64,000 bases of DNA, taken from the NCBI GenBank assembly GCA_016125275.1, contig WGMB01000013.1, forward strand, positions 1 to 64,000, given 5' to 3'. The position numbers and the translations under genes are program-made. Below the pieces are notes generated by a model. It was not told the DNA's origin. It was given only the letters and a program-made list of their open reading frames with translations, and ran no database searches. This document shows, piece by piece, positions 13,728 to 42,447 of the stretch (positions are counted from its first letter, which is position 1; every line of letters starts with the position of its first letter). This DNA comes from Acidobacteriota bacterium. Its GTDB lineage: Bacteria; Acidobacteriota; Terriglobia; Bryobacterales; UBA6623.

Positions 13728-14723
13728 ATGTGGAAAGGTTTTCAAAAGCCGAAGCGGCTGATCGCAGATCCTGACACGCTCACCGACGGCTACGGGCGGT
13801 TTACCGCCCAGCCGTTCGAGCGGGGTTTTGGCTATACGATCGGAAATCTGCTGCGTCGGGCCGTCCTCGGCTCGGTCGAAGGCGCCGCCATTACGGCGGT
13901 TCGGATTCAAGGCGCTGACAGCGAGCTCAGCGCTCTGGACGGCGTGAACGAAGACGCCGGAGACGTCATTCTCAACCTCAAGCAGATTCCCCTGAAGCTG
14001 CACGGGGAGTCGACGGCGACCCTGCGCCTGAAGGCGACGGCGGCCGGCGAGGTCTACAGCGGTCAGATCGAGACCGACGCCAAGCTGGCGGTGCTCGACT
14101 CGAACATCCTGATCGCGACGATCGAGCCGGGCGGCTCGCTCGAGGTCGAGGCCCGCGTCAAGTTGGGCCGCGGCTTCGTGAGTGCGGAAGAGAACGACGA
14201 CGAGGATCTGGCGACGGACTTCATCCGCGTCGACTCGGTGCACTCGCCGGTTCGCCGGGTGCAGTATGTGGTCGACGAGGCACGCCTCGGTCAGATGACC
14301 GATTACGACAAGCTTCAGCTCGAAATCTGGACCAACGGCGCGATCGCACCGCAGGACGCGATCAGCCACGCCGCGGAGGTCATCCGCGACCAGATGGGCA
14401 TCTTCATCAACTTCGAGGAAGAGGCGATCGCGACCGAAGCGCCGGCCGAGAAGGAAAGCGACGAGTTCGCCGAGCACCTCAACCGTTCGGTGGAGGAGCT
14501 GGAGTTGTCGGTTCGTTCTTACAACTGCCTCAAGAACGCCAACATCCAGACCATCGGGGACTTGGTGGTCCGCACCGAAGCGGACATGCTGAAGACGAAG
14601 AACTTCGGCCGCAAGTCGCTCAACGAGATCAAGGACATCCTCGCGACGATGGGGCTCGGGCTCGGCATGCGCTTCGATGAGCGCGGCCGTCTGATCGGTC
14701 CCGAAAGCGAAGACGCCAGCTAA
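13728..14723 (+). CDS. rpoA: RNA polymerase subunit alpha, copy 1 (diverged N-terminal domain)
   Basis: Full-length alpha subunit of 331 residues. The ATG at 13728 aligns with copy 2; an in-frame TTG lies directly before it. GAAGGGGAG is about 12 bases upstream, a weaker arrangement than for copy 2. The N-terminal assembly domain has [20 protein letters not shown] and [20 protein letters not shown], and the C-terminal domain has [20 protein letters not shown] and [13 protein letters not shown]. Compared with copy 2 and the usual consensus, copy 1 changes LLSS to VLGS and HEFS to SELS, in the part of the domain that dimerises and contacts beta. The C-terminal DNA-binding residues (equivalents of E. 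coli R265, N268, C269, G296, K298, S299) are kept. The reading frame is intact, with no sign of decay. Confidence 0.95.
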
Positions 14724-14745: not shown

Positions 14746-15741
14746 ATGTGGCGGGGATTCCAAAAACCCAAGCACTTGGCCGTCGAGCCTGACTCGCTGA
14801 CGTTGACCTACGGGCGTTTTTCCGCGCAGCCGTTCGAGCGCGGCTTCGGGACCACGATCGGCAACTCGCTGCGTCGCGCTCTGTTGAGCTCGATCGAAGG
14901 CGCCGCCATTACGGCGGTCCGGATCGAGGGCGTCTCTCACGAGTTCAGCCCGCTGCCCGGTGTGACCGAGGATGCGACCGACATCATCCTCAACCTCAAG
15001 CAGATCCCGATCAAGCTCCACGGCGAAGGTCCGCGGACCATTCGGCTGCGCGCGACCGAGCCCGGCGAAGTCCTGAGCGGCCGGATCGAGGCGGACTCCG
15101 AGGTCGAGATCCTCGACCCGAACGTCTACATCGCCACCGTCGGCGAAGGCGGCATCCTCGACATCGAGATGCGCGTGAAGGTCGGCCGGGGCTACGTGAG
15201 CGCCGAAACCAACTTCGACGAGGACCTGGCGCTGGGTTACATCCCGATCGATTCGGTCCACTCGCCCGTTCGGAAAGTAAACTTCACGGTGGACCAAGCG
15301 CGGTTGGGGCAGATCACGGACTACGACCGCTTGGGGATCGAAGTGTGGACCAACGGCGCCGTCTCCCCGCAGGATGCGGTGGGCTTGGCGGCCAAGCTGC
15401 TCAAGGACCACATGGCGATCTTCATTCACTTTGAAGAAGACGCCGTCGGCGACGAGCCCGCCGGAGAGGGGCAGGCCGATCGCTACAACGAGCATCTCAA
15501 TCGCTCGGTGGAAGAGCTCGAGCTGTCGGTGCGCTCGTACAACTGCCTCAAGAACGCCAACATCCAGACGATTGGCGACTTGGTGGTGCGTACCGAGTCC
15601 GACATGCTCAAAACGAAGAACTTCGGCCGCAAGTCGCTGACCGAGATTCGGGAGATCCTGGCCGGGCTCGGCTTGAGCCTGGGCATGCGCTTCGACGAGC
15701 ACGGCCGGCTGATCGCGCAAGACGGCGCGGACGAAGACTAG
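14746..15741 (+). CDS. rpoA: RNA polymerase subunit alpha, copy 2 (consensus form)
   Basis: Second complete alpha subunit of 331 residues, starting 22 bases after copy 1 with a near-ideal CAGGAGGAA seven bases before the ATG. The N-terminal domain keeps the common motifs [20 protein letters not shown] and [20 protein letters not shown]. The C-terminal domain is almost identical to that of copy 1. In a hand alignment the first 240 residues of the two copies are roughly 60-65% identical, while the 50-residue C-terminal core differs at one position. This copy is the best candidate for the ancestral alpha. It is followed by rplQ in the standard position. Confidence 0.96.
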
Positions 15742-35155: not shown

Positions 35156-35189
35156 GGCTAGCCGACCGTGCTAGCCGCCTTTTTTTTTT
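35156..35189 (+). terminator. Intrinsic terminator of the POT gene, inside the 3' end of accC
   Basis: GGCTAGC (35156-35162) and GCTAGCC (35170-35176) form a 7-bp stem with a 7-base loop, followed after three bases by a run of ten T (35180-35189). On the plus strand this is a normal factor-independent terminator for the transporter mRNA. The same bases encode the last residues and stop codon of accC on the other strand; the accC TAG (35158-35160) lies in the stem. Confidence 0.8.
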
Positions 35190-36525
35190 GCTGCAACTGT
35201 TCGATGAAGCGGGTGTCGAAGTTCCCCAGCGCGAAGTCCTCGTCGGACATGATCCGGCTGTGCAGCGGGATCGTGGTGTGGACGCCCTCCACGACCGACA
35301 TCTCCAGGGCGCGCTTCATGCGGGTGATCGCTTCGGTCCGGTCGCGGCCCGTGGCGATGAACTTCGCCAGCAGCGAGTCGTAGTAGGGCGGAACGAACCA
35401 GCCCGAGTACGCTGCCGTCTCAACGCGGACGCCGATGCCGCTGGGCGGCAGGAACTTGGTGACCTTGCCGGCCGAAGGCGCGAAGGTCTCCGGGTTCTCG
35501 GCGTTGATGCGGCACTCGATGGCGTGACCCTGGATCTCGATCTTCTCGGGCAGGATCGCGTCGAGCGGCTCGCCGTCGGCGATGCGAATCTGGGCCTTCA
35601 CCAAGTCGATGCCGGTGACTGATTCGGTCACCGGATGCTCCACCTGGATGCGGGCGTTCATCTCGATGAAGTACAGCTTGCCGTCCTCGTCCATGAGGAA
35701 CTCGACCGTGCCGGCGTTGGAGTAGCCCACGCGCGATAGGGCGGTTTCGAGCACCTTGCCGATCTCGGCCCGCATCGCTGCGTCCACGCGCGGCGACGGC
35801 GCTTCTTCGAGCAGCTTCTGATGCCGCCGCTGGATCGAGCACTCGCGCTCGCCGAGCGAGACCACGCGGCCGTGCTGGTCGCCCAGCACCTGGAATTCGA
35901 TGTGCCGCGGACGCTGGATGTACTTCTCCAGGTAGACGTCGGCGCACTGGAAGCTCGCCGAAGCCTCGTGCCGGGCCTGGTGGAATGACTGCTCCAACTC
36001 GCGGGCGTTGCGGACGATCCGCATGCCGCGCCCGCCGCCGCCGGCGGCGGCCTTGATGATGACCGGATAGCCGATCCGCTCGGCTTCCTTGCGCGCCTCG
36101 GCTTCGGTCTCCACCGGGCCTTCCGAGCCCGGCAGCACCGGCACGCCGGCGGCGGCCACAGCCTTGCGCGCCCGCGCCTTGTCGCCCATCAACCGGATCA
36201 CGTCCGAGCGAGGCCCGATGAAGTTGACCCCGGAGACCTCGCAGACTTCGGCAAAGGCGGCGTCCTCAGCGAGGAAGCCGTAGCCGGGATGGATCGCCTC
36301 GGCGTCAGTGATCTCGGCGGCGCTGATCACCGCCGGCACATTGAGGTAGCTCTCTGCGCTGCGCGGGGGCCCGATGCAGAGGGCCTCGTCGGCGTAGCGC
36401 ACGTGCAACGCTTCGCGGTCGGCCTGGGAGTAGATGGCCACCGTACGAATCCCCAAGTCCTTACACGCCGCGATCACTCGCAACGCGATCTCTCCGCGAT
36501 TGGCAATGAGGATCTTCTGGATCAT
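35158..36525 (-). CDS. accC: Acetyl-CoA carboxylase, biotin carboxylase subunit
   Basis: AccC of 455 residues, which carboxylates biotin on AccB using ATP and bicarbonate in the first step of fatty acid synthesis. The start [18 protein letters not shown], the glycine-rich [15 protein letters not shown], the active-site region [20 protein letters not shown] with VEHPVTE, and [12 protein letters not shown] are diagnostic. It is downstream of accB with a 25-base gap. The last codons include a run of ten A on the coding strand (QQKKKAAS), which is also the T run of the opposing terminator. Confidence 0.97.
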
Positions 36526-36550: not shown

Positions 36551-37066
36551 TCAGGCTCCTACCGGCCGAATCGCGAACAACGACTGACCATACTCGACCG
36601 GCTGGGCGTTGGCCACGAAGCGCTTGACGACGACGCCGGCGACTTCCGACTCGATCTCGTTCATCAGCTTCATCGCTTCGATGATACAGAGCACCTGGCC
36701 GACGGCGACTTTGTCGCCGACCTCGACGAACGAGGGAGATCCCGGCGCCGAGGATTCATAGAAGGTGCCCACGATGGGAGAGGGCACCAAGGTCAGTCCG
36801 TCGTCCTCGCTCGCTTCCGGCGTCTCCGGGGAGGCCTTCGGCGTGGGACCGGGTTGAGGAACGGGACCGGGGCCCAGAGCCGGCGCCGTCACGCCGGCGG
36901 GCATCGCCCCGGAAGCTACCACCACGTAGGGCGGTTGTGGAGCGGATTCGCGCTCCGGCGCACCGCGCCGAATGCGAACCTTCGCTTCATCGAGCTCGAC
37001 CTCGAGCTCCGTCACGTCGCTGTCGGTAACAGCCTTCAACAGTTCTTTGATGTCGTCGAGATTCAT
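36551..37066 (-). CDS. accB: Acetyl-CoA carboxylase, biotin carboxyl carrier protein
   Basis: BCCP of 171 residues. The biotinylation site is in [19 protein letters not shown] (Lys of AMKL). The N-terminal part is [20 protein letters not shown], then a Pro/Ala linker (about 50-95), then the biotinyl domain starting [20 protein letters not shown], where the thumb-type segment is present. It is located directly before accC and 30 bases after the peptidase gene. Confidence 0.96.
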
Positions 37067-37095: not shown

Positions 37096-38175
37096 CTACA
37101 GAATCAGCAGGCCCGGCGTTGCGGGAAGCAGCCGCTGATAGCCTTGTGACGTGACTGTCACAATATCTTCAATCCTAGCTCCGGCAAAACCCTCACGATA
37201 AACGCCCGGCTCTACGGTCAGAACCATTCCGGACCTTAGCCGAGCGTCTTCTGACTTTCCTAACTTGGGACTTTCGTGGATCTCTAACCCCAGGCCGTGT
37301 CCGGTCGAGTGGATGAACAATGAGTCGAGTCCTTGTTCTTTCAAGCTCTCTCGTGCGGCACGGTCTACCGTTTTTGCGGCGACTCCGGCTCGGATGGCGG
37401 CCATTGCCGCCTGCTGCGCAGCCTGCACGGCCTGCGCCAAGTCGCGCGCCCGAGGCCCGGGATCTCCTAGGGAAATCACACGAGTCTGGTCGCTAACGTA
37501 TCCGCCAAGTATAGCACCGTGATCAATGACGATCAGCTCGCGGCGCGGCAGCGGCGTCGGCCGGGGGCGAGCGTGCGGAAGGGCCCCGTGGGCTCCGCCG
37601 GCGACGATGGTTTCGAACGCCGGGCCCGAGGCGCCCCGCAGGCGCATCTCGTGGTCGATCTCGGCCGCCAGGCGCTGCTCGGACCATTGGGCGTCGAGCC
37701 GTCCCAGCACGGCGTCGAGCGAGGCGGCCGCCAACTCCGCCGCTTGCCGGATCGCTTCGATCTCGGCGGCGCTCTTGACCCAGCGCTCCCGTTCCACCCA
37801 CCCCAGGGCCTGCGTCAGCGACGTCTCCGGGGCGCCCGCGCAGAGCCTGCTCCAGGCGGCGTGGGAGAGCCGATCCGCCTCGAAGGCCATCCGGCGGATT
37901 CCCCGGCCGGGCAGCGAGCCCAGCAAGGCCCCGAGCGGGTCCGTCTCCGCGACGACCAGCTCGGCTTCGGGCGCTTCTTGGGCGGCCTGCACCCGGTACC
38001 GGCCGTCGGTGAACAGCGTCCCCGGTCCCGTCGTCGGGACGAGCAGGTGCCCGGCGCTGCCTCGGAAGCCGGTGAGATAGGCGATGTTGGGCAAGGCCGA
38101 GACGTAGAGCGCGTCCACGCCTTCCCGGTCGAGCCGGCGCTGCAGGCGGCGGAGTCTGGCGGAGGCTTCGCTCAC
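37096..38175 (-). CDS. Xaa-Pro aminopeptidase family (M24) protein
   Basis: 359 residues, a metallopeptidase removing N-terminal residues before proline (PepP/PepQ group). The creatinase-like N-terminal domain (1-125) starts with LRRLQRRLDREGVDALYVSA and has YLTGFRGSAGHLL. The catalytic domain shows the metal ligands in VIDHGAILGGYVSDQTR, FIHSTGHGLGLEIHE, LTVEPGVY and ARIEDIVT. The GTG start overlaps the stop of the PilN-like gene (GTGA). DNA encoding roughly the last third (about 37100-37540) is clearly less GC-rich than the rest of the gene. Position before accB is common in many bacteria. Confidence 0.92.
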   Translation of the reverse strand: MSEASARLRRLQRRLDREGVDALYVSALPNIAYLTGFRGSAGHLLVPTTGPGTLFTDGRYRVQAAQEAPEAELVVAETDPLGALLGSLPGRGIRRMAFEADRLSHAAWSRLCAGAPETSLTQALGWVERERWVKSAAEIEAIRQAAELAAASLDAVLGRLDAQWSEQRLAAEIDHEMRLRGASGPAFETIVAGGAHGALPHARPRPTPLPRRELIVIDHGAILGGYVSDQTRVISLGDPGPRARDLAQAVQAAQQAAMAAIRAGVAAKTVDRAARESLKEQGLDSLFIHSTGHGLGLEIHESPKLGKSEDARLRSGMVLTVEPGVYREGFAGARIEDIVTVTSQGYQRLLPATPGLLIL

Positions 38176-38873
38176 GGCTGCCGAATCCGGAGGGACACGC
38201 CGGCGTCGTTGGAGGAGATCTCCACGGCGGGAAAGACTGGCGTCTCGAGCACCAGTCGCACCAAGGGCGGATCGAGCGTGTTCTGGGCGATGCGCACGCG
38301 CTGCACCAGCTCGCCGTCCACGACCTGATTTCGTTGCGCGTCCGGAATGTCCAGCGTCGCGCCGGGAATGTCGAAGACCACGCGGTTGGGATTGTCGACG
38401 CGGAACGAGCGCACGGTGGGCGCGCCCGCGATGCTGACGAACACGTCGAGGCCCGTGGCCAACGGCGTGAGCTGCAAGGCGGTCACATGAAGCGGTGCGC
38501 CCGCCGTCGCGGGTCGCGCGGTTTCGGAGGGCTCCCTCGCGGGTGGGTCGGGCTCGGCCGGCGGCGCCTCCACGATGAGCTCGGCGACCGGCAGCGGGTC
38601 GGGCTGCGCCTGGGCGGGCGGGGCTGCGGGGGGCGAGGCGGGTCGCGGCGCGGGAGTCTCCACGGCTGCTTCGAGGCTGGGGGCCTCGGGCTCCAGATCC
38701 TCCTGCCGGAACCAGAGTTGGGTTCCCAGAATTGCCAGCGCGAGGCCCAGGAACAGGCCGCCCAGCACGACCTCCCGGCGCGAGATGAAGCCCCCGGAGC
38801 GCCCGGGATTCAACATCGCCTGGAGTCGCTCCGTCGGCGCGGGCAGGTGCTCGAGCAGATTGATGCGGATCAT
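38172..38873 (-). CDS. PilN-like N-terminus fused to an AMIN domain (membrane protein)
   Basis: 233 residues. It begins MIRINLLEHLPAPTER, which is the PilN motif known to bind PilM. One membrane helix lies at about 35-55 (VVLGGLFLGLALAILGTQLW). A Pro/Ala/Glu linker (about 60-128) leads to an AMIN domain (about 130-233; VTALQLTPLATGLDVFVSI, RVVFDIPGATLD, LVRLVLETPVFPAVEI), the type found at the N-terminus of PilQ and in amidases. The ATG overlaps the pilM stop (ATGA). The normal PilN coiled coil and ferredoxin-like domain are absent, so this is not a standard PilN. I infer that it links cytoplasmic PilM to the periplasm or cell wall. Confidence 0.8.
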   Translation of the reverse strand: MIRINLLEHLPAPTERLQAMLNPGRSGGFISRREVVLGGLFLGLALAILGTQLWFRQEDLEPEAPSLEAAVETPAPRPASPPAAPPAQAQPDPLPVAELIVEAPPAEPDPPAREPSETARPATAGAPLHVTALQLTPLATGLDVFVSIAGAPTVRSFRVDNPNRVVFDIPGATLDIPDAQRNQVVDGELVQRVRIAQNTLDPPLVRLVLETPVFPAVEISSNDAGVSLRIRQP

Positions 38874-39856
38874 GACTCCTCGAGGGCGCTCAGCGCCAAG
38901 CCCGCCGCGATGGCCAGGGAAGGGCCGTGCTCCTGGATCAAGCGGCCCGACGCAGAGGACGGCGAGTAGCTGACCTTGTGGAACGGATCGACCGCCTCCG
39001 CCGGGCAGCCCAGTCGCTGCGTCAACGCCTCCTGCAACTCCGGGATGCGGGCCGAGCCGCCCGACAGGCGCATCTTCTGAATCTTGTGAGGCAGCGCCCG
39101 CTTCTCGAGCTGGGACATCTGACTCTCGACGGCCTTGAGGACGCGTTGCGTCAACGGTTCCTGCGCGTCGAGCCGCTCGCGCGTGACCACCATGTCGCGA
39201 GCATAGGCGATGGCCCAGCCGCGCATCAGCGCCAGGGTCAGGCAGCGCGCGCCGATGTTGACGAGCAGCACGGTCTCCTGCGAGGTCGGTGCGCTGTTGA
39301 AGCTGTAGGCGTTGGCCAGCGCGCAGGCCTGCGGAGTGACGAACACCGCCGTGCGGCCCGCCAGCGACACCGTCTCGCGCACCCAGTCCACCTGTTCCAC
39401 CGGCGTCGAGGTCCACAGCACCGCGCCGTCGATCATCACCTCGACCGGCTGCCACCCGATGCAGGCGGCGCTGAGCGGATAGGCCAACTGCTTGGCCGCT
39501 TCGTCGCGAACGAAGCCTTCGAGATCTTGCGCCGCCCCGGCCGGCGCGCGGTCGGACTGGCAGATGACCTTCTCGCCGCCCACCGCCAACGCAAAGCGTT
39601 TGGCTGCGATCTCGTAGTCGATGCACAGCGCCTTAATGCTGCGCGCGATGGAGATGCCGTCCGTGAGGGCGCCGGAGGTCAGCACGCCAGCCGGCGTGCC
39701 CGCCAGCGCGGCCTGTTTGAGGAGCACGCTGCCGTGCCGACGTTCCAGAACGACGGCCTTGATCATGGCGGTGCCGATATCAAGGCCCACAACCGACTTT
39801 CGGGATCGAAACGGGTTGGAGAGGACGGAAATGGCGGGCTCGGCTCCTGCTGCCAA
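38870..39856 (-). CDS. pilM: PilM-like type IV pilus ATPase (actin fold)
   Basis: 328 residues of the PilM/FtsA-like family, the cytoplasmic actin-fold protein of the type IV pilus inner platform. The phosphate-1 loop is VVGLDIGTAMIKAVVLERR, the second is in ETVLLVNIGARCLTLALMRG and the adenosine loop is RLSGGSARIPELQEALTQ. The start is probably TTG at 39856, six bases after the preceding stop region, and is uncertain. The stop is coupled to the PilN-like gene. No pilO, pilP or pilQ follows. Confidence 0.86.
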   Translation of the reverse strand: MAAGAEPAISVLSNPFRSRKSVVGLDIGTAMIKAVVLERRHGSVLLKQAALAGTPAGVLTSGALTDGISIARSIKALCIDYEIAAKRFALAVGGEKVICQSDRAPAGAAQDLEGFVRDEAAKQLAYPLSAACIGWQPVEVMIDGAVLWTSTPVEQVDWVRETVSLAGRTAVFVTPQACALANAYSFNSAPTSQETVLLVNIGARCLTLALMRGWAIAYARDMVVTRERLDAQEPLTQRVLKAVESQMSQLEKRALPHKIQKMRLSGGSARIPELQEALTQRLGCPAEAVDPFHKVSYSPSSASGRLIQEHGPSLAIAAGLALSALEES

Positions 39857-39862
39857 TCTAGC

Positions 39863-40537
39863 TCAGCGCACCGAGCGTACCAAGTCTTCCGCCAGCACTT
39901 GGGCGCGTTGGGCCAAATTCCGGGCCAAATTCAGGTCTTGGCCGCGCACTTCCTCGGCTTGCTTGAGAAAGGCTTGGATGCGCTTGACCGCCGCCAACTG
40001 CTCGCCGTTGAGCGAGCGGCCCATCAACGAGCGCAGGTGGCCCCGCGTGACCTCGAGGCTGCGGTCGAGCTCCTGCTCGGTGGTCTTGCGCTCGGCCGGC
40101 GTCATCAAAGGCGAGAGCTGCGGCAACGTCGCGCTGGGCTCGGCGGGAGGCGGCGCCGGTTCGGGCTCCGCCCCGGCCACGGTCGGCGCCGGGCGAGCGG
40201 TCGGCTGCGTCGGCGTGGGCTTGGGCTTCGGCGCGGGGTTGGCGCTGGGCGCCGGAGCGGTCGGGCGCGGCACGGCCCCGTCGGGAATCGGCTGCTCCGG
40301 CGGCAACTGGACGATCGTCTGCGGCGCGGACAACGGAGCCGTCGGCGCGGGGGCCGGGACAGAGGCCGGCGTCGGCTGGGGCGCCGTCACCGGCGGTCCG
40401 GCGGCGGTCCTCTTCTTGATGCAGGCCGTCGAGAACAGCAGAAGGGTCGCCGCCAAGACCACGAGGGTCACCCTCGAAGCCGTCGCGGGACTCGCCGGCG
40501 CCATCGACAACTTCTCTACGGCGTCAGCGTAGGTCAT
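39863..40537 (-). CDS. Proline-rich lipoprotein with C-terminal helical domain
   Basis: 224 residues, family not recognised. After a 20-residue leader a hydrophobic stretch ends in LLLFSTACIKKR, a lipobox with the cysteine near residue 39. Residues about 45-135 are a Pro/Ala/Thr-rich linker (PAPKPKPTPTQPTARPAP). The last ~80 residues are alpha-helical and charged (PAERKTTEQELDRSLEVTRG, AVKRIQAFLKQAEEVRGQDL). The ATG at 40537 overlaps the kinase stop (ATGA). Placement between the kinase and pilM suggests an envelope role in the same system. Confidence 0.75.
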   Translation of the reverse strand: MTYADAVEKLSMAPASPATASRVTLVVLAATLLLFSTACIKKRTAAGPPVTAPQPTPASVPAPAPTAPLSAPQTIVQLPPEQPIPDGAVPRPTAPAPSANPAPKPKPTPTQPTARPAPTVAGAEPEPAPPPAEPSATLPQLSPLMTPAERKTTEQELDRSLEVTRGHLRSLMGRSLNGEQLAAVKRIQAFLKQAEEVRGQDLNLARNLAQRAQVLAEDLVRSVR

Positions 40538-42447
40538 TGGGCCAGTTCCGCTCCTTTGCGGGTAGGATTCGCCCCTTGAGATTCTTCCGCGATCGGTAGT
40601 TGCAGGCGAAACTCGGTTCCAACGCCGGTTTCGCTCGAAAACTCGATTGTACCACCGTGCAACTGCACGACTCGAAAGGTCATCGCCAATCCGATGCCCG
40701 AGCCTTTCGCCTTGGTCGTGAAATAAAGCTGGAAGATTTTCTCTTGATTTTCAGGGGGAATGCCCGGCCCGGTATCGCGGATGGCGACCTGCCACGACTC
40801 TCCCGCCCGGCCCAGCTCTACATCCAGCCGGCCGCCGTCGCTCATGGCCTGGATGCCATTCATGATGATGTTCAGAATGGCCTGCTTGAGCAGGTCGCGA
40901 TCGCCGCGCGTCCACGCCGAAGCGGCGCCCGAGCGGATGACTTCCACGTCCTGCTCGGCCGCGTCCGGAGAGACCAGCTTCACCAGCTCATCGAGCAGTG
41001 CGGCTAGGTCCCACTCGCCGATCTCGAGCTCCACCGGCCGGGTGAAGTCCAGGAACGACCGCACCACGCGGTCCAGGCGCCGGATCTCCCGGGAGATCAC
41101 CTCGATCTCGGCCGCGCCCACGTCCGAGCCCTCGAGCTTGTTCTTGAGGACCTCCAAGTGCAAAGCGATCGAGTTCAGCGGATTTTTGATCTCATGGGCG
41201 GCGCCGCTGGTCAATCGACTGATGGCCGCCAGCCGAGTCGAAAGGTCCAGCCGCGACTCGATCTGGCGCCGCGGCTCGGCTTCGCGCAACGTCACCAGCG
41301 TGCCGATCCGATCCCGGCTCGGGAACTCCTCCAGCATTTCGATCGACAGCAACAGCGACACCGGCTCTCCGTCCTTGCCCCGATGGACGACTTGCAGGTT
41401 CCGCGAGTTTCGCCGCACGCTGATCGCGCTCTGCACGAAGGCCCCTAGCTCGGTCGCCAGCGGAAACACTTCGTCGATCGTGCGGCCCATGATGGCCCAG
41501 CGCCCGCCTTCCACCAGCCGGTCCACGGCGCCGCCGGCCATCACCAGCCGGTCGTCGCGGCCGAACAGCAGCACGGCGTCCTCCAGGCGGGTCAGCAACT
41601 GGTCGATGTTCGAGCGCAGTTGCTCGGCGTCGTCCCGCGCGCCACGGACCCGCTCGCCCAGCAGGCTCAGCTTGGATTCGACGGCGGCAACCTCGCGCGA
41701 GCCGGCCCGCTCCCGCTCGGCGGCTGCCGCTTCGTCGCGCTGGCCGCTGGCGATCCGGTCGATCAGCTCCCCGATGTGGCCGAGCGGGCGCACCGCCAAC
41801 TGCGCCACCACTCCGGCCGCGGCCAGCGAGAGCAGCAACGCCAGCCCGGAGACGATGGCGAGCGGCTGCAACCGTGGCAACAACACGACTTCCCGCAGAA
41901 AGACCAGCGAGAGAATCATGCGGATCGTCAGCACCCTGCGCTGCCCGCCTTCGAGCTGGAAGCCGAGCTCCCGGCTGACCTCGTAGTCCTGATTGCTCGA
42001 AAAGACCTCTTCGAGCCGCTCCAGCAAGGACTTGCTCTCGAACTCCTCGAGCGAGGGCAGGGGCGCGTGCCGCTGGCCTCGCTTGCTCGGGATGGACGCC
42101 GCCACGATGCGCTCGCCGGGGCCGGTGACCAAGCCTTCCACGATGATCGGGTAGTTGGCCATCAACTGCTCGAGCAGCAGGCTCAACTGGGCGTCTTGCT
42201 CGGCGGCGCGCACGTAGACGTCCACCAGCTCGTCCGCCGTGGTCGGCTTGACCTCCACCGAGGCCAGCCGGGCGCGGGCGATGCTGGCGATGTAGGACTC
42301 GACCTGACTGGTGTTGCTGTCGGCGATCGTCCGGGCCTGCTCGAAGCTGTCGGTGATCGTGGCCCGCAGGTAGAGCAGCGACAGCACCACCACGATCGCT
42401 CCGGCGAGAGCGACGATCGAGGCCTGCAGTCGGGTGCGCAGCGACAT
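40534..42447 (-). CDS. Membrane sensor histidine kinase (NtrB/ZraS type)
   Basis: 637 residues. There are two membrane segments (about 9-29 and 190-215) with a periplasmic sensor of about 150 residues between them, then HAMP (RPLGHIGELIDRIASG), a PAS-like region (about 285-385) and a kinase core. The phosphorylated histidine is about residue 418 in SGAAHEIKNPLNSIALHL. The N box is NIIMNGIQAM, G1 is DTGPGIP, F is FQLYFTT and G2 is GSGIGLAM. It follows its NtrC-type partner by 15 bases. The input signal is unknown. Confidence 0.95.
   Translation of the reverse strand: MSLRTRLQASIVALAGAIVVVLSLLYLRATITDSFEQARTIADSNTSQVESYIASIARARLASVEVKPTTADELVDVYVRAAEQDAQLSLLLEQLMANYPIIVEGLVTGPGERIVAASIPSKRGQRHAPLPSLEEFESKSLLERLEEVFSSNQDYEVSRELGFQLEGGQRRVLTIRMILSLVFLREVVLLPRLQPLAIVSGLALLLSLAAAGVVAQLAVRPLGHIGELIDRIASGQRDEAAAAERERAGSREVAAVESKLSLLGERVRGARDDAEQLRSNIDQLLTRLEDAVLLFGRDDRLVMAGGAVDRLVEGGRWAIMGRTIDEVFPLATELGAFVQSAISVRRNSRNLQVVHRGKDGEPVSLLLSIEMLEEFPSRDRIGTLVTLREAEPRRQIESRLDLSTRLAAISRLTSGAAHEIKNPLNSIALHLEVLKNKLEGSDVGAAEIEVISREIRRLDRVVRSFLDFTRPVELEIGEWDLAALLDELVKLVSPDAAEQDVEVIRSGAASAWTRGDRDLLKQAILNIIMNGIQAMSDGGRLDVELGRAGESWQVAIRDTGPGIPPENQEKIFQLYFTTKAKGSGIGLAMTFRVVQLHGGTIEFSSETGVGTEFRLQLPIAEESQGANPTRKGAELAQ

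Follow-up and report, generated by a model that had tools for sequence, protein, structure and literature searches.

A PilM gene paired with a PilN-type/AMIN fusion gene in Bryobacterales (Acidobacteriota), best read as a pilMNOPQ operon collapsed in place

The subject of this study is a pair of adjacent genes in a 64,000-nt stretch of DNA (positions 1-64,000 of the forward strand of contig WGMB01000013.1, assembly GCA_016125275.1; the whole stretch is called the window and the source genome is labelled G000), which stems from an Acidobacteriota bacterium assigned by GTDB to Terriglobia; Bryobacterales; UBA6623. One gene encodes PilM and the other a protein of 233 residues, named the tether protein after the role proposed below, in which a PilN-type N-terminus with one membrane helix is followed by a linker and an AMIN domain (Table 1). 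Judged from sequence comparison, the pair is best read as a pilMNOPQ operon that collapsed in place, whereby the 5' end of pilN was joined to a PilQ-like AMIN domain. We believe this reading to be new, and we consider the anatomy and the origin of the pair to be well supported. The original prediction for this DNA had placed a PilM and a PilN-like/AMIN protein at 38172-39856; these coordinates proved to be exact, and MIRINLL, the single helix, the linker and AMIN were all seen. Its proposal of a reduced link between PilM and AMIN via the PilN peptide, without PilO, PilP or a secretin at the locus, is supported as well, and the arrangement is conserved in related genomes. In the literature consulted (open-licence full texts; titles and abstract openings), we found no recognisable description of a PilM together with a PilN-AMIN protein.

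The N-terminus of the tether protein carries the predicted PilM-binding peptide. The pattern M-[ILVM]-x-[ILVM]-N-L-L was found at only one of 7,029 starts with at least 60 open codons in 201 kb of the source genome (the window plus nine further stretches), and this one is the tether gene. Because the motif is so rare among these starts and recurs beside PilM in 4/4 orthologous loci, its position at the start of the tether protein is not a matter of chance. M-x-R-x-N-L-L is invariant in all four tether proteins at an identity of only 30-34% to the window protein, and the same is true for F29, R33 and E34 before the helix and for core residues of AMIN. There is a single hydrophobic segment (best 19-mer at residues 35-53, Kyte-Doolittle value 2.11; modelled helix 32-58), which is preceded by five Lys/Arg and three Asp/Glu residues; the N-terminus is predicted to lie inside the cell and the linker, which consists of 28% Pro and 24% Ala, in the periplasm. 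Pfam detects AMIN at residues 143-212 (E 1.5e-9), after which 21 residues remain to the C-terminus. AMIN (PF11741) was found in 4/4 tether orthologues and the PilN core domain (PF05137) in none of the four at E<=1, and the Pfam scan of the orthologues returned AMIN and AMIN-like families only. The protein has the PilN-type succession of an N-terminal motif of the PilM-binding kind and one membrane helix; AMIN stands without a secretin domain, so the PilQ-type layout of AMIN followed by a secretin is not found. The modelled AMIN part has the AMIN fold, with AmiC (4BIN, E 9e-4) as first and PilQ (3JC8, E 0.013) as second match among solved structures. The tether gene overlaps pilM by ATGA and pepQ by GTGA, and pilM and the tether gene are probably co-translated.

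The PilM of the window belongs to PF11104 (PilM_2; E 9.6e-26, 90.9 bits at a cut-off of 27), a family that the PilMs of all four orthologous loci match at E<=0.001, and it scores just below the cut-off of NCBIfam TIGR01175 (126.7 compared to 133). Its AlphaFold2 model, built from 16 sequences, has a predicted local distance difference test score (pLDDT) of 86.4 and a predicted template modelling score (pTM) of 0.87 and displays an FtsA-like actin fold with the IC subdomain, the latter read from modelled elements. The closest solved structures are 2YCH (Z 32.2, 302 residues aligned) and 5EOU (Z 31.4, tied), both of them PilMs solved with a PilN peptide, followed by 3JC8 (30.9) and FtsA (about 28); Foldseek also places PilM first.

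This PilM and its three orthologues are unusual in one respect. The stretch between residues 222 and 246 comprises 25-26 residues in 4/4 variant PilMs compared to 56-91 (mostly 58) in 43/43 others, which are PilMs of other genomes shown only in part beside a pilN-type gene (by a simple scan, an MxxxNLL-type motif adjoins PilM in 22 of the 28 class loci of this comparison and not in six). In other PilMs, the missing segment comes after the strand that follows phosphate-2 and ahead of the helix preceding LSGG, and we take it to be subdomain IIB. In class PilMs it reads like GGNQYTDSLQKELDLSFDDAExLKxG, and in most other PilMs it carries a helix of the AExxK type, AExxK being the adenine-side motif of actin-like folds; from the fold, this helix would line the nucleotide site next to the adenine. 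FtsA filaments are reported to be held together by IIA-IIB contacts (PMC7613929). Because a segment of approximately 32 residues is missing in all four variants, normal ATP binding and polymerisation of these PilMs are doubtful. The description of the protein as an actin-like ATPase in the original prediction has thereby become questionable, although the lysine for the ATP phosphate is retained. Furthermore, positions with at least 85% conservation were taken from 41 other PilMs; 13/26 of them in IA, 2/26 in IC, 6/20 in II outside the gap and 0/4 in the gap are retained by every one of the four variants, with subdomain borders approximated from the PilM model (loci L143 and L123 were omitted here and kept among the 43 of the gap-length comparison). 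Since PilN is described to contact PilM IA extensively (PMC7613929), this pattern fits a PilM that has retained the peptide clamp and given up other contacts. It is no proof, because the phosphate loop lies in IA as well.

The pair was found whole in four genomes. The PilM search in 200 genomes of the order gave five matches, and in G000, G323, G315 and G297 the order pilM, tether gene, PepQ is identical; G299, where a contig breaks off within an AMIN protein whose end immediately precedes PepQ, is a fifth likely holder. The holders belong to the families f1 and f82. A mis-called frame was rejected as explanation because orthologues with the same borders exist for both frames, and likewise an assembly artefact because the order recurs in three other genomes. 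No pilO, pilP or pilQ was found at the window locus by Pfam and by reading of the neighbours, as the original prediction had stated, and pepQ is the next gene in 4/4 whole loci. One related locus (L065) shows the same eight genes as the window and another (L066) has no match to the regulator gene, the genes of these two lower-GC loci being read from open-reading-frame lists; a third (L067) is a short contig reaching from the lipoprotein gene to the start of accB. The PilM match in G479 is a fragment of an ordinary pilMNOPQ operon on a 4.4-kb contig (L068, contig C820), judged by eye to be a contaminant and not counted as a holder; if it were genuine, one genome of the order would keep the ordinary operon.

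PepQ, searched at E <= 1e-30 in 61 genomes of the order, is present in 59 of them. None of 20 PepQ flanks from order genomes without a PilM match contained the pair, and ordinary pil queries gave no match in them either (one, L108, shows 0.7 kb upstream only). In four of these flanks, from G313, G317, G341 and G310, the lipoprotein and kinase genes stand directly upstream of PepQ and the pair is missing; G341 and G310 also gave no AccB or AccC match after PepQ within the stretch compared. G313 and G317 are of the same genus as the pair holder G315. In the phylum, the tether protein matched 67/297 genomes, beyond its own gene with the AMIN or linker part only and mostly in long open frames, and the tether profile matched 283/396 genomes, where among the matches listed only the own gene aligns from position 1 and others from at least position 44. 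The PilN-AMIN arrangement, for which the original prediction had suggested a search across Acidobacteriota, was recovered in the four genomes of the order, with the AMIN end alone visible at the contig edge in G299, and the phylum matches listed otherwise cover AMIN or linker only.

The origin of the pair can be read from its place. The PilM profile matched 243/399 genomes of the class (weak matches included), and nine loci were chosen across families from 28 loci (L116-L143) for a check of the operon. Six of the nine (L158, L159, L161, L162, L163, L164) read pilM-pilN-pilO-pilP-pilQ-PepQ-AccB-AccC, with PepQ within about 0.5 kb after the pil genes; in L163 pilN was not matched by tblastn, but a gene starting with MMKINLL stands at that position. 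The pair fills the slot before pepQ-accB-accC in the window and two other loci, and likewise in the third, L067, whose contig ends in accB. Because six of the nine class loci show this order, the pair stands where the complete pilMNOPQ operon is found in class relatives of the families f3, f85, f86, f87 and f89. A search with the PilM alignment gave 21 related loci (L069 is the same contig as L067, judged by length and match position), and 12 further loci from it were read for neighbours, eight of the 21 lying outside this reading: in 11 an M-x-x-x-N-L-L gene adjoins PilM in ordinary pilMNO order within locus reach, and in L076 no recognisable pilN was seen beside PilM.

The PilM trees and the AMIN profile bear on the same question. 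The variant PilMs of the four loci form one clade on a long branch in both trees (100/99 and 100/100). The first tree omits L123 and contains L143 as a meaningless row (an 859-aa frame cut to its first 400 residues); the second omits L143, L123 (a near copy of L070) and five more near copies. With a profile made from the four AMIN domains, AMINs of class PilQs reached scores of at most 78 bits; AmiC of the source genome, the one amidase included, was absent from the list. Among the best AMIN matches in the phylum, those with loci available for comparison fall on 33 distinct places, counted by hand, of which 26 are secretin proteins, three amidases and four neither; the same tally as 38 rows with repeats gives 30, four and four. 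By profile, the tether AMIN appears more PilQ-like than AmiC-like, which makes PilQ a candidate for its source. The original prediction had assigned AMIN domains to PilQ, which is correct in that PilQ has AMIN and too narrow in that AmiC-type amidases carry it as well.

The remaining genome places the pair into context. It holds a single PF11104 gene, FtsA-family matches at two places, PilB and PilC-type proteins, a type II secretion system (T2SS) locus on contig C14, and secretin matches at five places; AMIN was matched three times in this genome, each time away from the secretin matches. A further locus on contig C9 (L022:2206-9214) contains PilB, a very divergent PilM, an acetyltransferase-like gene (by eye), a PilN starting with MRADMNLASHPF, a PilO-like protein and a large pilin-like protein. 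This PilM-like protein has no Pfam match itself and is a distant PilM by profile (hhalign 98.6%, E 1.3e-15; PilM in PDB, E 2.6e-7). A Pfam scan of six C9 genes gave no PilP or PilQ match; one of the six, L022:6835-7587, stayed without any match and could be PilP-like. The C9-type PilM occurs in 59/61 order genomes, only three of which are known to hold the pair, and it was not found only in G297 (81% complete) and G299 (64% complete), both pair holders of f82. Because this divergent PilM set goes with the remaining pilus-like machine and its PilM is nearly universal in the order, the pair is most likely an extra and not the pilus platform of the source cell. A full ordinary pilMNOPQ operon elsewhere in the genome was rejected, as there is one PF11104 gene and PilN matches only at the T2SS of C14 and at C9. 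The original prediction had named separate pilN, pilO and pilQ genes as something to look for and another pilMNOPQ operon with its own PilM as an argument against it; the C9 locus provides such a set in part, with PilM, PilN, PilO and PilB. Elsewhere in G000, on contig C12 (L024:7624-8802), a formylglycine-generating-enzyme-like (FGE-like) domain is fused to an AMIN domain whose score with the tether profile reaches that of PilQ AMINs.

For the function of the pair, we lean, by a modest degree, towards an in-place remnant of pilMNOPQ acting as a tether between PilM and peptidoglycan. During the collapse, pilM would have lost one subdomain segment, the 5' end of pilN, encoding PilM-binding peptide and helix, would have been joined via a flexible linker to a PilQ-type AMIN, and the PilN core, PilO, PilP and the secretin would have been lost together with the pilus role. 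The IA-IC cleft of PilM may then hold the cytoplasmic MIRINLL tip of the tether protein in the way known for PilN, with weak or absent use of ATP; the tether protein would cross the inner membrane once, its linker would span part of the periplasm, and its AMIN domain would grip peptidoglycan, probably at new or denuded wall sites. PilQ AMIN domains are reported to bind peptidoglycan and to recruit the complex to mid-cell and division sites in Pseudomonas (PMC5285504). By analogy to FtsA-FtsN at the septum, the pair could set a PilM platform under particular wall sites. We put forward more tentatively, with somewhat less than even confidence, the wider proposal that in-place deletion turned pilMNOPQ into a non-pilus tether, in which an ATP-deficient PilM would act as pure peptide clamp and form a second, independent link of the FtsA-FtsN type, one that could label wall sites or organise them and would need neither filament nor secretin nor inner-membrane platform for this.

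Several observations weigh against this view. The pair is rare (4/200 order genomes and one contig edge), and the model of the tether protein is of middling confidence (mean pLDDT 68, AMIN part mostly 80-89). Among the class loci, L160 has pilMNOPQ with neither PepQ nor AccBC, the contig of L165 ends inside pilQ so that no succession of PilQ and PepQ is visible, and L166 shows pilM, pilQ and, about 2 kb after pilQ, AccB-AccC with no PepQ match. The sister of the variant PilMs differs between the two trees; in the first they are nested among class PilMs. Regarding a PilQ origin of AMIN, Myxococcus PilQ and E. coli AmiC tie in the comparison with solved structures (E 1.1e-9 and 1.4e-9), AmiC is the best structural match of the AMIN model, and the FGE-AMIN (sulfatase-type) protein of the same genome reaches 71 bits with the tether AMIN profile. 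In Pseudomonas, PilM itself is reported to be unnecessary for mid-cell recruitment (PMC5285504). Moreover, K33 of the window PilM corresponds by alignment to K26 of Thermus thermophilus PilM, the mutation of which abolishes ATP binding (PMC6325625). As none of the four variants has changed K33 or either glycine of LSGG, some nucleotide binding may remain.

Three other explanations have to be considered. The pair could serve the pilus or T2SS machine of the cell, with PilM contacting an assembly ATPase and the AMIN protein fixing the machine, or a secretin without AMIN of its own, to the wall in the manner of GspB/OutB. This is rather unlikely in our opinion. In its favour, T. thermophilus PilM binds the ATPase PilF even as a mutant deficient in ATP binding (PMC6325625), GspB/OutB is described to anchor the secretin to inner membrane and wall (PMC9239104), and the genome keeps PilB, PilC-type proteins, the T2SS locus and secretins set apart from its AMIN matches. 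However, the pilus-like locus on C9 has its own divergent PilM, PilN and PilO, most genomes with the C9-type PilM are not known to hold the pair, and both genomes in which that PilM was not found are incomplete pair holders.

That the pair is a functionless relic of pilMNOPQ on its way to full loss is improbable. Its patchy distribution, with G313 and G317 cleanly without the pair and the congeneric G315 with it, as well as the very long branches and the loss of the PilM segment and of many conserved positions would fit such a decay. In contrast, both frames are intact in 4/4 whole loci across two families, the motif, F29, R33, E34 and the AMIN core are invariant amid diverged sequence, and two frames would hardly persist to 30-45% identity without selection. 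It is even less probable, and in our view very unlikely, that the pair was formed at another place or taken up from outside and only then came to lie before pepQ, which would make its place uninformative on its origin. The unstable tree neighbour of the variant PilMs and the occurrence of AMIN in other architectures, such as the FGE-AMIN protein, are consistent with an acquisition, but the same slot holds pilMNOPQ in the class families mentioned above, and the 20 flanks from the order gave no match to ordinary pil genes.

The in-place tether differs from each of the systems it resembles. It shares with PilM-PilN of type IVa pili (2YCH, 5EOU) the PilM fold and family, a partner starting with M-I-x-[IV]-N-L-L and having one helix, and adjoining or overlapping genes; however, its PilM lacks approximately 32 residues and its partner has AMIN instead of the PilN core, so a PilN-type dimer with PilO is not expected. 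Its AMIN is nearest to secretin AMINs among the loci compared and occupies the operon slot of PilQ, whereas the protein has no secretin domain and would be bound to the inner membrane by a PilN-type helix. Like FtsA-FtsN, the pair combines an actin-fold protein with a bitopic partner whose cytoplasmic tail is short and whose periplasmic end would bind the wall, a task of the SPOR domain in FtsN. This is an analogy only, since the parts of the pair are PilM, PilN tip and AMIN and the genome has separate FtsA-family genes; we know of no link of the pair to FtsZ or FtsWI. A likeness between FtsA-FtsN and PilM-PilN has already been drawn by others (PMC7613929). A precedent for pilus parts reused outside pili is FcpMNO of the Campylobacterota flagellar cage, with alignment proteins outside a pilus and PflD as a PilQ-domain fragment on a membrane anchor; there, FcpM, N and O are all kept, the machine is a flagellar motor, and its authors describe it for Campylobacterota only (PMC11870540). 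GspB/OutB of the T2SS is likewise an inner-membrane-attached protein linked to the wall, but its HR domain binds the N-terminal domain of the secretin, and a PilM partner is absent there as far as that account goes (PMC9239104).

The pair represents a natural deletion experiment that left no more than PilM, the tip of PilN and a single AMIN domain. If it works, PilM-peptide plus AMIN would be a sufficient module, which bears on the role of PilM and its need for ATP, and the pair would show how a large machine can shrink to a tether. The question is open to comparison in one genus, between G315 with the pair and G313 and G317 without it.

Table 1. Coordinates of the gene pair, its parts and the neighbouring genes in the window.
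Feature	Coordinates	Strand	Evidence
Tether protein, 233 aa: PilN-type N-terminus, one membrane helix, Pro/Ala linker, AMIN	38172..38873	-	Open reading frame, Pfam, model, orthologue alignment
Tether codons 1-7, MIRINLL, predicted PilM-binding peptide	38853..38873	-	M1, R3, N5, L6, L7 invariant in 4/4 orthologues
Tether membrane helix, about residues 33-58	38700..38777	-	Hydrophobicity and model
Tether Pro/Ala-rich linker, about residues 59-127	38493..38699	-	Composition, model
Tether AMIN domain, about residues 128-231 by model (Pfam 143-212)	38181..38492	-	Pfam, profile, model
PilM, 328 aa	38870..39856	-	PF11104, model; ATGA overlap with tether gene
Site of missing ~32 residues in PilM, codons 222-235	39152..39193	-	Alignment to other PilMs; model
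PepQ-like M24 peptidase, GTGA overlap with tether gene, conserved downstream marker	37096..38175	-	
AccB, biotin carboxyl carrier protein, downstream marker	36551..37066	-	
AccC, biotin carboxylase, downstream marker	35158..36525	-	
Putative lipoprotein, lipobox by eye, Pro-rich, conserved helical-looking C-terminus	39863..40537	-	
Sensor histidine kinase (AtoS-like), upstream neighbour	40534..42447	-	
NtrC-type sigma-54 response regulator, upstream neighbour here and in L065	42462..43853	-	

The genes upstream of the pair (lipoprotein, kinase, regulator) and downstream of it (PepQ, AccB, AccC) are all on the same strand. A promoter scan gave one site on the + strand (0.5 expected) and none on the - strand, and two terminator-like sites were found on the + strand (5.0 expected) and none on the - strand. 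The putative lipoprotein matched no Pfam family at E<=0.2 and adjoins the sensor kinase in seven loci (window, L065, L066, L106, L107, L110, L112); it remains with the kinase in four loci lacking the pair. Farther away in the window, two complete rpoA copies stand in tandem on the + strand (13728-14723 and 14746-15741) among ribosomal-protein-like genes, with 67% identity over 329 residues.

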